DNA of 64,000 nt from Candidatus Omnitrophota bacterium (GTDB lineage: Bacteria > Hinthialibacterota > Hinthialibacteria > Hinthialibacterales > JAKPRU01): the NCBI GenBank assembly GCA_029570205.1, contig JAKQSI010000033.1, forward strand, positions 1-64,000. Reading direction: 5' to 3'. The notes under the pieces are model-generated. The model saw nothing but the letters and a program-made list of their open reading frames with translations. It was not told where the DNA came from and did not search any database. Each line of letters begins with the position of its first letter. Within the stretch, counting starts at the first letter, position 1. Positions 20,940-63,358 of this stretch are shown here, one piece after another. Position numbers and translations under genes: made by a program.

Positions 20940-21006
20940 CCGCTTACCGGTGGAATGGCTATTCATCGGGTCAATAATCTCGCACAGTGACGGAGAGGTT
21001 CCGAAG

Positions 21007-22902
21007 ATGGATCGTCAGACTTGTTACGGCAGGGCATGTCGGTTTTATGTAGTTTTGGTATTTGCGAGCCTGGTGTTGGTGGGGCAGGCAATGGCGCAAG
21101 AGCCGTTACGCGGACCGTCGGGGGAAATTCTCATTGGTTTGGGAACGCTTGAGTATGCGGCATACTCGCCCGACGGTAAACACATCGCGACGTGCGGTAG
21201 CGCGGGTGCGTTTCTCTGGGATGTTGAAACCGGCACGGCGATTCGGATGTTTTCGGGAGGTATGGGTTCGGGATATTGTATAGTTTTTTCGCCGGATGGA
21301 AAGAAAGTCTTGATGGGGAGGGGGAATGGGACCTCGAGTTTATGGGATACGGGCACAGGGGCATTGATTCAGACGTTTTCGGGGCACGGGTTTAGCGTCT
21401 ATTCCGTAGCGTTTTCCCCGGACGGGACGAAGGTGTTGACGGGGAATGGGGATGGGACAGCGAGTTTGTGGGATGTGAGCACAGGGGCGGTAATCCGGAC
21501 GTTTTCGGGGCACAGTGATGGGGTTCTTTCCGTAACGTTTTCGCCGGATGGGACGAAGGTGTTGACGGGGAGTTACGATAACACAGCGAAGTTGTGGGAT
21601 GCGGGCACCGGGACGTTGATTCGGACGTTTTCGGGGCACGAGAGCAGTGTCAGATCTGTGGCGTTTTCCCCGGATGGGACCAAGGTGTTGACGGGGGGTT
21701 GGGATAAGACAGCGAAGTTGTGGGATGCGGACACAGGGACGTTGATTCGGACGTTTTCGGGGCACGGGTTTAGCGTCAATTCCGTAGTGTTTTCCCCGGA
21801 TGGGACGAAGGTGTTAACGGGGAGCGCCGATTATACGGCGAAGTTGTGGGACGCGAGCGCGGGGGCGTTGATTCGGACGTTTTCGGGGCACGGGAGTGGC
21901 GTCAGATCCGTGGCGTTTTCCCCGGATGGGACAAAGGTGCTGACAGCGAGTTGGGATGATACGGCGAAGTTGTGGGATGCGGGCACAGGGACGGTAATCC
22001 GGGCGTTTTTGGGGCACACGGATTGGGTTAATTCCGCGGCGTTTTCCCCGGACGGGACCAAGGTGTTGACGGGGAGTTACGATAATACAGCGAAATTGTG
22101 GGATTCGGGCACAGGGAGGTTGATTCGAACATTTTCGGGGCACGGGAGCAGCGTCACTTCCATAGCGTTTTCCCCGGATGGGACGAAAGTCTTGACAGGG
22201 AGTGTGGATAAGACGGCAAAGATGTGGGATGCGGAGACAGGGGCGGTAATCCGGACGTTTTCGGGGCACGAGGATGACGTCAGATCCGTAGCATTTTCCC
22301 CGGATGGGACGAAGGTCTTGACAGGGAGCGTGGATAAGACGGCAAAGATATGGGATGCGGGCACAGAGACGGTAATCCGGACGTTTTCGGGGCACGAGAA
22401 TTACGTCTATTCCGTGGCGTTTTCCCCGGATGGGACGAAGGTGTTAACGGGGAGTAAGGATAACACGGCGAAGCTGTGGGATGCGGGCACAGGGGCGGTA
22501 ATTCAGACGTTTTCTGGGCATGGGATTGGCGTGTTTTCCGTAGCGTTTTCCCCGGATGGGACGAAGGTCTTGACAGGGAGTGAGGATAAGACGGCGAGTT
22601 TGTGGGATGCGGAAACGGGGGCGTTGATTCGGACTTTTTCGGGGCACGGCGAGGGTGTCAATTCCGTAGCGTTTTCCCCGGATGGGACGAAGGTGTTGAC
22701 GGGGAGTTGGGATGGTACGGCGAAATTGTGGGATGTGGGCACAGGGGCGGTAATCCGGACGTTTTCGGGGTACATGGGCTACGTCGAATCCGTAGCGTTT
22801 TCCCCGGATGGGATGAAGGTGTTGACGGGAAGCGAGGATGGTACGGCCCGGATTTGGGATGTTAGTGAGTATGCGGATATTGAGCGGTGGGTAGTGTATT
22901 GA
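21007..22902 (+). CDS. Secreted 14-repeat WD40 beta-propeller protein
   Basis: 631 residues from the ATG at 21007. Signal peptide residues 1-31 (hydrophobic FYVVLVFASLVLVGQAMA, then QE), so it is exported. The rest is 14 WD40 repeats of 42 residues, consistent with two complete seven-bladed propellers. Blades 3-14 share an almost fixed frame: S-G-H-xxx-V-x-SVAFSPDGTKVLTG-xx-D-x-TAKLWD-x-GT-xx-IRTF. The varying positions are those just after GH, after V, and around the Asp before TA, which in WD40 folds form the top binding face. Codon choice is unlike the neighbours, with heavy use of GGG, ACG, GCG and TTG. It resembles high-identity WD40 proteins that turn over by repeat exchange. Ligand unknown; no enzymatic domain. 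Confidence 0.9.
   Translation: MDRQTCYGRACRFYVVLVFASLVLVGQAMAQEPLRGPSGEILIGLGTLEYAAYSPDGKHIATCGSAGAFLWDVETGTAIRMFSGGMGSGYCIVFSPDGKKVLMGRGNGTSSLWDTGTGALIQTFSGHGFSVYSVAFSPDGTKVLTGNGDGTASLWDVSTGAVIRTFSGHSDGVLSVTFSPDGTKVLTGSYDNTAKLWDAGTGTLIRTFSGHESSVRSVAFSPDGTKVLTGGWDKTAKLWDADTGTLIRTFSGHGFSVNSVVFSPDGTKVLTGSADYTAKLWDASAGALIRTFSGHGSGVRSVAFSPDGTKVLTASWDDTAKLWDAGTGTVIRAFLGHTDWVNSAAFSPDGTKVLTGSYDNTAKLWDSGTGRLIRTFSGHGSSVTSIAFSPDGTKVLTGSVDKTAKMWDAETGAVIRTFSGHEDDVRSVAFSPDGTKVLTGSVDKTAKIWDAGTETVIRTFSGHENYVYSVAFSPDGTKVLTGSKDNTAKLWDAGTGAVIQTFSGHGIGVFSVAFSPDGTKVLTGSEDKTASLWDAETGALIRTFSGHGEGVNSVAFSPDGTKVLTGSWDGTAKLWDVGTGAVIRTFSGYMGYVESVAFSPDGMKVLTGSEDGTARIWDVSEYADIERWVVY
21376..22857 (+). repeat. 126-bp in-frame tandem repeat array encoding WD40 blades
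   Basis: Unit length is 126 bases: TTTTCGGGGCAC starts at 21376, 21502 and 21628 and continues in register to the end. The first two blades (about 21142-21375) and the last are the most diverged, as expected if unequal exchange homogenises the middle of an array. Confidence 0.85.
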
Positions 22903-25488: not shown

Positions 25489-25519
25489 GATAAAGAAAGC
25501 AGGCTTCCTGCCCTTCTTT

Positions 25520-25888
25520 GCCAGGCAGAGACGCCTGGCCTACTGGGTAGCTGCCAGGCAGGGACGCCTGGCCTACTGGGTAGGACAGGCCTCCGTGCCT
25601 GTCAGGTCTTGATCTGCCAGGCAGAGACGCCTGGCCCACTGGGTAGCTGCCAGGCAGAGACGCCTGGCCCACTGGTAGGACAGGCCTCCGTGCCTGTCAG
25701 GTCTTGATCTGCCAGGCAGAGACGCCTGGCCTACTGGGTAGCTGCCAGGCAGAGACGCCTGGCCTACTGGTAGGACAGGCCTCCGTGCCTGTCAGGTCTT
25801 GATCTGCCAGGCAGAGACGCCTGGCCTACTGGGTAGCTGCCAGGCAGAGACGCCTGGCCTACTGGTGGGACAGGCCTCCGTGCCTGTC
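25520..25888. repeat. Tandem array of 20-bp palindromes (family A)
   Basis: Eight copies of A1, GCCAGGCAGAGACGCCTGGC (25520, 25553, 25616, 25649, 25711, 25744, 25806, 25839; one has GGGAC), and four of A2, GACAGGCCTCCGTGCCTGTC (25584, 25679, 25774, 25869). They form four superunits of about 95 bp in the order A1-A1-A2, with fixed linkers such as CTACTGGGTAGCT. Each palindrome has 7-bp arms and a 6-base loop. Other copies are at 39069-39140, 45011-45094, 53670-53719, 59122-59171 and 63286-63346. No associated protein gene is seen. Confidence 0.95.
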
Positions 25889-26417: not shown

Positions 26418-27890
26418 ATGAGCAGAGCAAATTCATTCTTGTGGATTGTCGGGATGGCCGCATTGTTTGTCGTGCCCGCTTTTGCCCAACCCGACCTCGA
26501 CCCGAATAACACGGCATCGGAATTCAAGGTTTACTCCCCCGAATCGCAGGGGCTGACCCCGCTGTCACAGGCCATCGACGTGGACGCAGAATATCCGGTC
26601 GAAGATACTCAAGAGAGCGTGGGGGTGTTGATCACCTCCGATGAGAAAGTGGTTTTTGCGCTGGATTACAATCCGGGGATTCTGTGGTATGACATAAACA
26701 TGAACCGCCTTCAGTGGCCCAGGGATTTCGAAGGTAACAACATGAGTGCGTTTTACGACGACAACGGCAACCCGCTGCCTGACGGCGGTTTCTGGGGAGC
26801 CAAGGTCAAGTCGAATGCGTATGGCCCCGGTTTCGGACTGGGCGGAGCCTGCAACTTCGGACCGGAATCCGATGTGCAGATTGCTTCCCTCTTCGACGCC
26901 TGTGTAATGGGCGAAATCCCTTGTGTCCAGTTGTACAACAACGACGGGACTCCGATTGTTCCTGTGAAGTGCGGAATCAGTGAGACGCTCGCGAAGGATT
27001 ACGAGGGCGATGTCCGCATCGGTGACTGGGATTATCTGTCGAACGGCAACATTGTGATTGCCGCTGAGTGCCGCAAAGCGCTGGCGAATAGCGAAGTCTT
27101 CGGCATTGCTCAATCCAGAGTGGTAACCTATGGAATTCTCGCGCCCGGCGAGCAATTCCCATCCGTTTTTGCCCGTGTCAGCGATTACTCCCAAGGAAAT
27201 CAAGAGATGTGGCATGGGGTGGCAAGTACGAAAAATGGCTTCGCCGTGCGCTATTCTGCGGGCGGCGCCAAAATCACATTTTTCAATAACGATGGAACAC
27301 GGAGATCGCCTGAAGTGGACCTAACCTCGTTGGGTACAGGCGCAATGGCAGGCGTTCTTGCCGGCGGTCGGGGCGATCATGAGGGGTGGCACAGCGATGG
27401 TGTCAGCCGTTACATCCTGGTTTCAGAGAACGGGAACCTTTTCAGTACGTTGCATCCGTTTGTCGCTATTTTCGATGAAGACGGAAACCTGATCAAAGGC
27501 CCGTTCGGAGTCGCGACCGGCCCGGACGGCTATTACTACACGACATGCGACCGCAACGATTGTGCGCTGCATCCGAGCGGCAAGTATATCGTTGTCTGGA
27601 TTGAAACCGATTACCTGCAACTGTCGAGCGGTGGAATTCTCCTCGGGCGAATCTTCAACGAGGACGGCACTCCCGCCACCAAAATGTTCGTAATCGACAA
27701 CGCGACCAATCCCGATGCTCCGGATTCCCAGCCCGGGCTTTCCCGACGCCCGCGTGTTGTCTGGCGTGGCAATAAAATTGCCGTAGTTTGGGTCAGCACA
27801 AACCGCGATGAGGCTGGAATCCAGCGTGTCTCCGGCCGCACTTTCCAATACGGCGAGGAAACAGGGATTGAGAACTACATGATCTACTGA
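26418..27890 (+). CDS. Secreted protein of unknown function
   Basis: 490 residues. Signal peptide 1-23 (FLWIVGMAALFVVPAFA, then Q). The mature chain is rich in aromatic and Asn/Gly/Asp residues and contains recurring strand-turn elements such as YNNDGTPIVP, FFNNDGTRRSP, FDEDGNLIKG and FNEDGTPATK, suggesting a beta-propeller of irregular blades. No catalytic motif is recognised. GAAAGAAACAG upstream gives a modest ribosome site. It has its own promoter candidate and a strong terminator directly downstream, so it is monocistronic. It may be a surface or secreted binding protein. Confidence 0.7.
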   Translation: MSRANSFLWIVGMAALFVVPAFAQPDLDPNNTASEFKVYSPESQGLTPLSQAIDVDAEYPVEDTQESVGVLITSDEKVVFALDYNPGILWYDINMNRLQWPRDFEGNNMSAFYDDNGNPLPDGGFWGAKVKSNAYGPGFGLGGACNFGPESDVQIASLFDACVMGEIPCVQLYNNDGTPIVPVKCGISETLAKDYEGDVRIGDWDYLSNGNIVIAAECRKALANSEVFGIAQSRVVTYGILAPGEQFPSVFARVSDYSQGNQEMWHGVASTKNGFAVRYSAGGAKITFFNNDGTRRSPEVDLTSLGTGAMAGVLAGGRGDHEGWHSDGVSRYILVSENGNLFSTLHPFVAIFDEDGNLIKGPFGVATGPDGYYYTTCDRNDCALHPSGKYIVVWIETDYLQLSSGGILLGRIFNEDGTPATKMFVIDNATNPDAPDSQPGLSRRPRVVWRGNKIAVVWVSTNRDEAGIQRVSGRTFQYGEETGIENYMIY

Positions 27891-44785: not shown

Positions 44786-45167
44786 TCGGATCTCCTCTGA
44801 ATGAAAACAAAACGCCCGTACACCATCTTCAACTGCGGGCGGATTGTATCGACCCGTGGGAGATGCAGAGCCAGATATTTCCCGAATTGTATCACGGTAT
44901 TATCAGAGCCGTATTCGGGGCTGGAGGGCAATTTACTATGTCCTAGAAGAATAGACTGCCCTGCGGTTTTGCCCAAGCTTACCGGCCTGTTCGGGCTGCT
45001 GCCTTTCTTTGCCAGGCAGAGACGCCTGGCCTACTGGTAGGACAGGCCTACTGGTAGGACAGATCTATTGGTAGGACAGGCCTCCGTGCCTGTCAATAGG
45101 CACAGAAACAAACCGCCCGTCCTTCGTGAGAGGGACAGGCGGTTCATGGATTCGTGTTCAGGCCGGA
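44786..45167. other. Intergenic stretch, A-family repeat and terminator
   Basis: Between nagB-PIG-L start and the groEL stop. Holds one A1 palindrome at 45011-45030, a partial copy at 45041-45060 and one A2 at 45075-45094 with CTACTGGTAGGACAG linkers, and the groEL terminator described separately. The flank CTTTCTTTGCCAGGC also borders the array at 25515. No gene. Confidence 0.7.
45112..45143 (-). terminator. Terminator of the groESL operon
   Basis: On the minus strand, ACCGCCTGTCC (45143-45133) pairs with GGACGGGCGGT (45122-45112) over 11 bp with one G-U, followed by TTTGTTTC. It starts 25 bases after the groEL stop. Confidence 0.85.
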
Positions 45168-63130: not shown

Positions 63131-63278
63131 TAATCAATTAAAAGAGAGGGAGGAAGGAAATAGATTGGGACGGATGAGACGAATAGGACCAATGGAGGTT
63201 GCCGGTTTTGATCGCCCTCACCCCGAGGCTCGACCGGCGAGAGCCGGAATCCAGGCCAAGGTAGATGGGTACGCAGCA

Positions 63279-63358
63279 GACCTCTGACAGGCAGGGACGC
63301 CTGTCCCTCCCGGACCGGAGACCTCTGACAGGCAGGGACGCCTGTCCCTCCCGGACCG
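63279..63358. repeat. Family A hybrid palindromes, two units of 41-bp period
   Basis: GACAGGCAGGGACGCCTGTC at 63286-63305 and 63327-63346: stem of A2, loop of A1. Flanks ACCTCT and CCTCCCGGACCG are repeated with them. The stretch CCTCACCCCGAGGCT appears at 63219 and 63361 on each side. At 63160-63190 GGACGGATGAGACGAATAGG is related to in-frame bases at 49841-49875. Confidence 0.85.

Follow-up and report, generated by a model that had tools for sequence, protein, structure and literature searches.

A predicted exported WD40 double propeller of a Hinthialibacterota bacterium with diversifying codons on its modelled upper face

What kind of protein arises when a bacterium repeats one WD40 blade many times over and varies a handful of its codons, and what maintains that variation? 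The question is raised by an open reading frame on the + strand of the window (the whole 64,000-nucleotide stretch that was analysed), which runs from an ATG at 21007 to a stop codon ending at 22902. The coding part (21007-22899) specifies a 631-residue protein composed of a putative signal peptide, fourteen 42-residue WD40 blades and a disordered tail. The locus is organized as follows.

20985-21006, + strand: putative ribosome-binding site region (GGAGAGG) before the ATG at 21007, from direct reading of the sequence
21007-21096, + strand: putative signal peptide MDRQTCYGRACRFYVVLVFASLVLVGQAMA, residues 1-30, with a basic n-region, a hydrophobic core and a site between AMA and QE, assigned by eye and with a simple rule
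21100-21252, + strand: N-terminal founder-type segment together with blade 1 (LRGPSGEILIGLGTLEYAAYSPDG...), the segment having homologs in 10 of 14 phylum genomes
21250-21375, + strand: blade 2, divergent, 85% identical in DNA to the sister-species copy
21376-22761, + strand: blades 3-13, a young tandem array of eleven 126-bp units, variable at codons 5, 6, 7, 9, 25 and 27 (predicted top face)
22762-22887, + strand: blade 14, the last, whose scaffold is kept in the sister species while its top face is replaced
22867-22899, + strand: C-terminal tail EYADIERWVVY, disordered in the AlphaFold2 model and resembling the tails of unrelated exported proteins of the same phylum

The 126-bp period of the array is detected by Tandem Repeats Finder. 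Pfam WD40 (PF00400) matches the whole protein with an E-value of 5.2e-161, twelve stretches pass singly, the GH and WD signatures are present, and the best 25 of 61 Pfam matches are all to propeller families. Blades 3-13 are 67-83% identical to one another in protein and 71-88% in DNA, with a silent divergence (dS) of 0.38-0.40; their high internal identity and recent duplication place them among the highly repetitive prokaryotic WD40 repeats. The first-pass annotation had described fourteen near-identical 42-residue blades at 21007-22902; the coordinates and the count are correct, and near identity applies to 11 of the 14 (blades 3-13) but not to the founder-type N-terminal blade 1 (12-24% amino acid identity), blade 2 (45-62% to blades 3-13) or blade 14 (52-64%). 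It had also proposed a signal peptide and no effector domain. Signal peptide, blades and tail fill all 631 residues, leaving no NACHT, HET or other effector domain, and the N terminus can be read, by eye and with a crude rule, as a putative MDRQTCYGRACRFYVVLVFASLVLVGQAMA followed by QE. Cleavage is likely between AMA and QE, and an alignment indicates that paralogs keep the same N-terminal arrangement; the protein is accordingly predicted, from sequence, to use Sec export.

The AlphaFold2 model, for which thirteen sequences were aligned, some of them paralog segments of the same genus, replaced a poor one made without an alignment (pLDDT 69). It has a pLDDT of 91.8 and a pTM of 0.77, and contains 14 blades that are four-stranded throughout; the last ten residues have a pLDDT of 34. 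The first short N-terminal strand (model strand 10-12) probably closes the last blade. The closest solved structure by Foldseek E-value is 2ymu, presumably a Nostoc protein of the WRAP family, which aligns over 577 residues, nearly the full length, with 41-42% identity. By TM-score relative to query length, the model matches 8i7o_P1, a sperm doublet microtubule chain that we take to be CFAP52-like, at 0.86, and AIP1 (1nr0) at 0.77. Because VIA-align and Foldseek place the model with 2ymu, WRAP designs and double seven-bladed proteins, the arrangement in two seven-bladed rings, as first annotated, is well supported as a prediction. The comparison with 2ymu, itself a highly repetitive propeller, covers structure and sequence match. 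AIP1 and the CFAP52-type chain share the predicted two-ring, seven-bladed architecture but differ in sequence (about 18-22% identity), in having old, divergent blades and in their cytoskeletal functions.

Each unit of the young array follows the frame FSGHxxxVxSVAFSPDGTKVLTGSxDxTAKLWD. Variation falls on codons 5, 6, 7, 9, 25 and 27, with entropies of about 1.9-2.7 bits, and many scaffold positions are invariant. The model puts these codons in three places, the d-a loop, the beginning of strand a and the b-c turn, which correspond to the upper face of the propeller, outside the core. This assignment is based on the secondary structure of the model, the established WD40 topology and the published HET-E model (PMC1805685). 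In the WD40 repeats of the fungal HET-D and HET-E proteins, codons 7, 9, 25 and 27 are under positive selection, and codons 8 and 26 under purifying selection (Paoletti et al. 2007, PMC1805685). The four codons 7, 9, 25 and 27 were therefore fixed in advance from that literature; since the six-codon set was picked after the data had been seen, the figure for the four codons is to be preferred.

Between blades 3-13, dN/dS at codons 7, 9, 25 and 27 is 3.2 (blade bootstrap 2.3-4.8), as calculated by pairwise NG86, which is approximate between recombining repeats and whose dS may be lowered somewhat by the biased codon use of the young array (GGG and CCG invariant). About 1 in 10,000 random four-codon sets reaches this rate. 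Internal controls are lower, with ratios of 0.75 [0.49-1.06] for the bottom c-d loop, 0.19 for the core strands and 0 for the a-b turn. Codon 26, flanked by variable codons 25 and 27, reads GAT in every one of the twelve blades 3-14, and all changes at codons 8 and 10 are silent; this pattern is more in keeping with selection than with a local hot spot of mutation. Two other young arrays in the third genome of the genus (G002) also exceed 1, at 3.1 (C199) and 1.7 (C572). In older paralogs the ratios fall below 1 because silent sites are saturated, and these paralogs neither support nor refute selection. Some of the top-face variety could come by inheritance from older donor blades. The first-pass annotation had placed the variable residues after GH, after V and beside the Asp, at the positions that vary in fungal HET proteins, and had offered buried sites or purifying selection as grounds for abandoning its proposal. 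The six codons are those it pointed to, the four HET-D/E codons among them; they map to predicted upper-face loops and change at about three times the silent rate.

Distances between units calculated from their first halves are uncorrelated with those from their second halves (Mantel r = 0.02, p 0.47), and the two variable cassettes (codons 5-9 and 25-27) therefore appear to be reassorted, as expected with intra-unit recombination. A nearest-neighbour blade in another array is found for 18 of 46 blades, where 36 would be expected if arrays were mixed. Most blades are thus closest to their own array, so amplification is mainly internal, and inter-locus blade exchange of the Podospora kind was rejected.

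The gene is also set apart by its codon use, as had been noted at first: GGG accounts for 67% of Gly, ACG for 62% of Thr and TTG for 72% of Leu codons, compared with 20-38%, 15-38% and 17-36% in four neighbouring genes. The same bias is found in the young array G002:C199 and is absent from the older paralog C112. We read it as the mark of recent amplification of one blade. A foreign origin was considered and set aside, since the bias recurs in G002:C199 and follows from one-blade amplification.

A syntenic copy is present in a sister species, G001 (JAKPRU01, deposited under the label Candidatus Omnitrophota), and the next gene is 94% identical in amino acid sequence with a dS of 0.19. This copy has four blades: blades 1 and 2 (92% and 85% identical in DNA, respectively), a single blade of the array, and the last blade, which is followed by the same tail. 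In the last blade, nonsynonymous changes number 9.5 per 14.3 sites on the top face and 3.5 per 81.5 in the scaffold; five of six top-face residues differ while the scaffold is kept. The missing blades were not found on other G001 contigs, where the remaining matches are to diverged paralogs. The comparison, made with this one sister species, supports turnover. The first-pass annotation had suggested comparing blade number and order between relatives: 4 blades are assembled against 14 here, a count that may reflect real loss, decay or assembly error because the G001 copy starts on a contig edge and is interrupted by a 1-nt frameshift; on the last blade the top face is a new one. The frameshift is a single extra G at the junction of blade 2 and the array (L043, reverse complement, about 250-260), which may represent decay, slippage or misassembly. 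In G002 the neighbouring gene has no clear ortholog, its best match being 33% identical.

We favour, at a probability of about 0.58, the reading that the gene encodes an exported WD40 double propeller with a mosaic upper face that serves as a binding surface under diversifying selection, grown by duplication and shuffling. It draws on the computed fold and face, the ratios above 1, the reassortment of half-units and the turnover relative to one sister species. One blade would have been duplicated in tandem, and recombination between and within units would shuffle the two small cassettes. Diversifying selection would then retain new residues at cassette sites, and purifying selection would hold the scaffold. 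The protein would act in the periplasm or outside the cell, where it would bind a variable or antagonistic extracellular target that forces change, such as a phage, the surface of a competitor or prey, or a matrix polymer. The first-pass annotation had proposed a secreted, rapidly re-assorting binder, with self/non-self, prey, phage or glycan recognition as candidate roles.

An exported scaffold or adhesin, serving matrix, glycan or envelope assembly with each blade tuned to its own fixed partner and no arms race, is a doubtful alternative. Double propellers of the AIP1 kind act as fixed scaffolds, and paralogs with He_PIG domains, F5/8 type C domains and, in one case, a BlaR1-type M56 peptidase suggest several roles for the family; a fixed scaffold is nevertheless unlike what the G001 assembly shows, where most blades are missing from this locus and the last blade carries a new top face. 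Neutral outgrowth, in which propellers recur from single blades, folding holds the scaffold and the top face drifts without a recognition role, seems to us improbable. Propeller amplification is documented, with peaks at 7 and 14 blades (PMC9218822), and the rate in the bottom c-d loops is close to that of silent sites as drift would allow, but drift caps dN/dS at about 1, while bootstrapped top-face values span 2.1-5.6 and the ratio is above 1 in three young arrays. Mutagenesis aimed at the variable codons, whether from a diversity-generating retroelement or from a dedicated hot spot, could explain why multi-base changes cluster in few codons and is scarcely credible given that this 93% complete genome (G000) has no RVT_1 (reverse transcriptase) match, that the gene has no strict G-quadruplex motif and that silent change (pS) is about equal beside variable codons (0.41) and in the distant scaffold (0.38). 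Recombination driven by G-quadruplexes, as in pilin variation, was likewise rejected: the gene has 94 G-runs against 54 expected with its neighbours' codons, yet no strict G4.

The diversifying propeller most closely resembles the HET-D, HET-E and HET-R proteins of Podospora anserina (NWD/HNWD; PMC1805685, PMC2873952). Both have near-identical WD40 units, diversifying selection at codons 7, 9, 25 and 27 with codons 8 and 26 conserved, and two shuffled codon pairs. Unit number varies in the fungal proteins; here 14 blades stand against 4 assembled in one sister species, in a copy with a contig edge and a frameshift. The fungal proteins are NLRs that work inside the cell, with NACHT and HET domains and demonstrated allorecognition, whereas the bacterial protein is predicted to be exported and varies also at codons 5 and 6. 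Podospora arrays exchange units between loci, in contrast to the mainly internal amplification seen here. The gene evolves in the HET-E WD40 mode; because it lacks a NACHT or effector domain, it is not a member of the HET-D/E/R family. An extended reading treats it as a bacterial, exported counterpart of HET-E-type recognition, from a family of secreted double propellers in which amplified blades and shuffled cassettes, under diversifying selection, would yield new surfaces for extracellular recognition; the family would have converged on the same four codons and would be sorted by a new short C-terminal tail, [IV]xx[W/F]x[ILM][YH]. We advance this only tentatively, as an unlikely combination.

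Propellers are continuously amplified, and the blade counts of WD40 arrays have peaks at 7 and 14 (Pereira and Lupas 2022, PMC9218822); that article also cites an innate-immunity role proposed for WRAP. A survey by Hu et al. (2017, PMC5587647) describes conserved scaffolds and diverse hot-spot residues in highly repetitive WD40 proteins, of which half are bacterial, and the present protein resembles those proteins in these respects and in its high internal identity and recent amplification. The part of the survey consulted here treats hot-spot diversity qualitatively, with no per-codon selection test and no exported double propeller of this phylum. What the present analysis adds is the codon-level test, the match to fungal codons, the predicted export, the cassette shuffling and the sister-species comparison. 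Highly repetitive prokaryotic WD40 proteins being already described, the case is remarkable for its putative export together with exact codon convergence with fungal allorecognition genes. It is a bacterial example in which the diversifying sites were predictable in advance from those genes, and convergent use of the WD40 upper face therefore becomes testable. The array itself offers a natural library of variants of the top face, and a partner could be sought directly because the protein is predicted to be exported and its fold is confidently modelled.

No defence or effector gene adjoins the locus, the near neighbours examined being housekeeping or unrelated. A link to anti-phage defence was rejected: the sole PADLOC match, to HEAT-ARM_XIII, is a partial match to a 1972-position profile and was read as a WD40-like stretch.

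Exported WD40 proteins of this family are widespread in the phylum, and the founder N-terminal blade occurs in 10 of 14 phylum genomes examined. In the same genome, C112 (L009 1710-11291) is an exported, 3194-residue paralog in which dozens of WD40 blades form several arrays split by F5/8 type C (discoidin) domains, and C126 is a further exported WD40 array. G002:C199 contains nine He_PIG Ig-like stretches, and G002:C572 has a weak, sub-threshold dockerin-like match. The He_PIG and F5/8 type C domains of some paralogs are typical of surface proteins. At L045 1297-7542, WD40 double arrays are fused behind a BlaR1-type M56 membrane peptidase, and L050 starts inside similar sequence; the domain order suggests sensor proteins with the propeller outside.

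The tail motif, in the form [ILV]xx[WYF]x[ILVM][YHF], ends 8 of 601 open reading frames, compared with 0.24 expected from its internal rate. Its sites are at 22879-22899 and 27867-27887 in the window, at L012 8940-8960 and L093 14743-14763, and in L096, L087, L010, L102 and L140-L169. Of the eight tail-bearing frames, seven encode a signal peptide; the remaining one is a broken fragment of a paralog. The tail spans unrelated families (WD40, F5/8 type C and a family of roughly 500 residues without a Pfam match), and a similar tail ends most of 30 homologs of the last family across the phylum; it is a possible new sorting signal. An exported 490-residue protein without a Pfam or NCBIfam match is encoded at 26418-27890 of the window; it has several paralogs per genome in the genus and homologs in 10 of 14 phylum genomes. 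The window also contains a repeat that is dispersed and often tandem, with GGCAGNGACGCCTG as its palindromic core, at 25519-25888, 45028-45083 and 63278-63358. This repeat occurs genome-wide and often sits at contig ends; counting both strands of the 4.39-Mb genome, the core has 498 exact copies and the reversed control pattern has 2.
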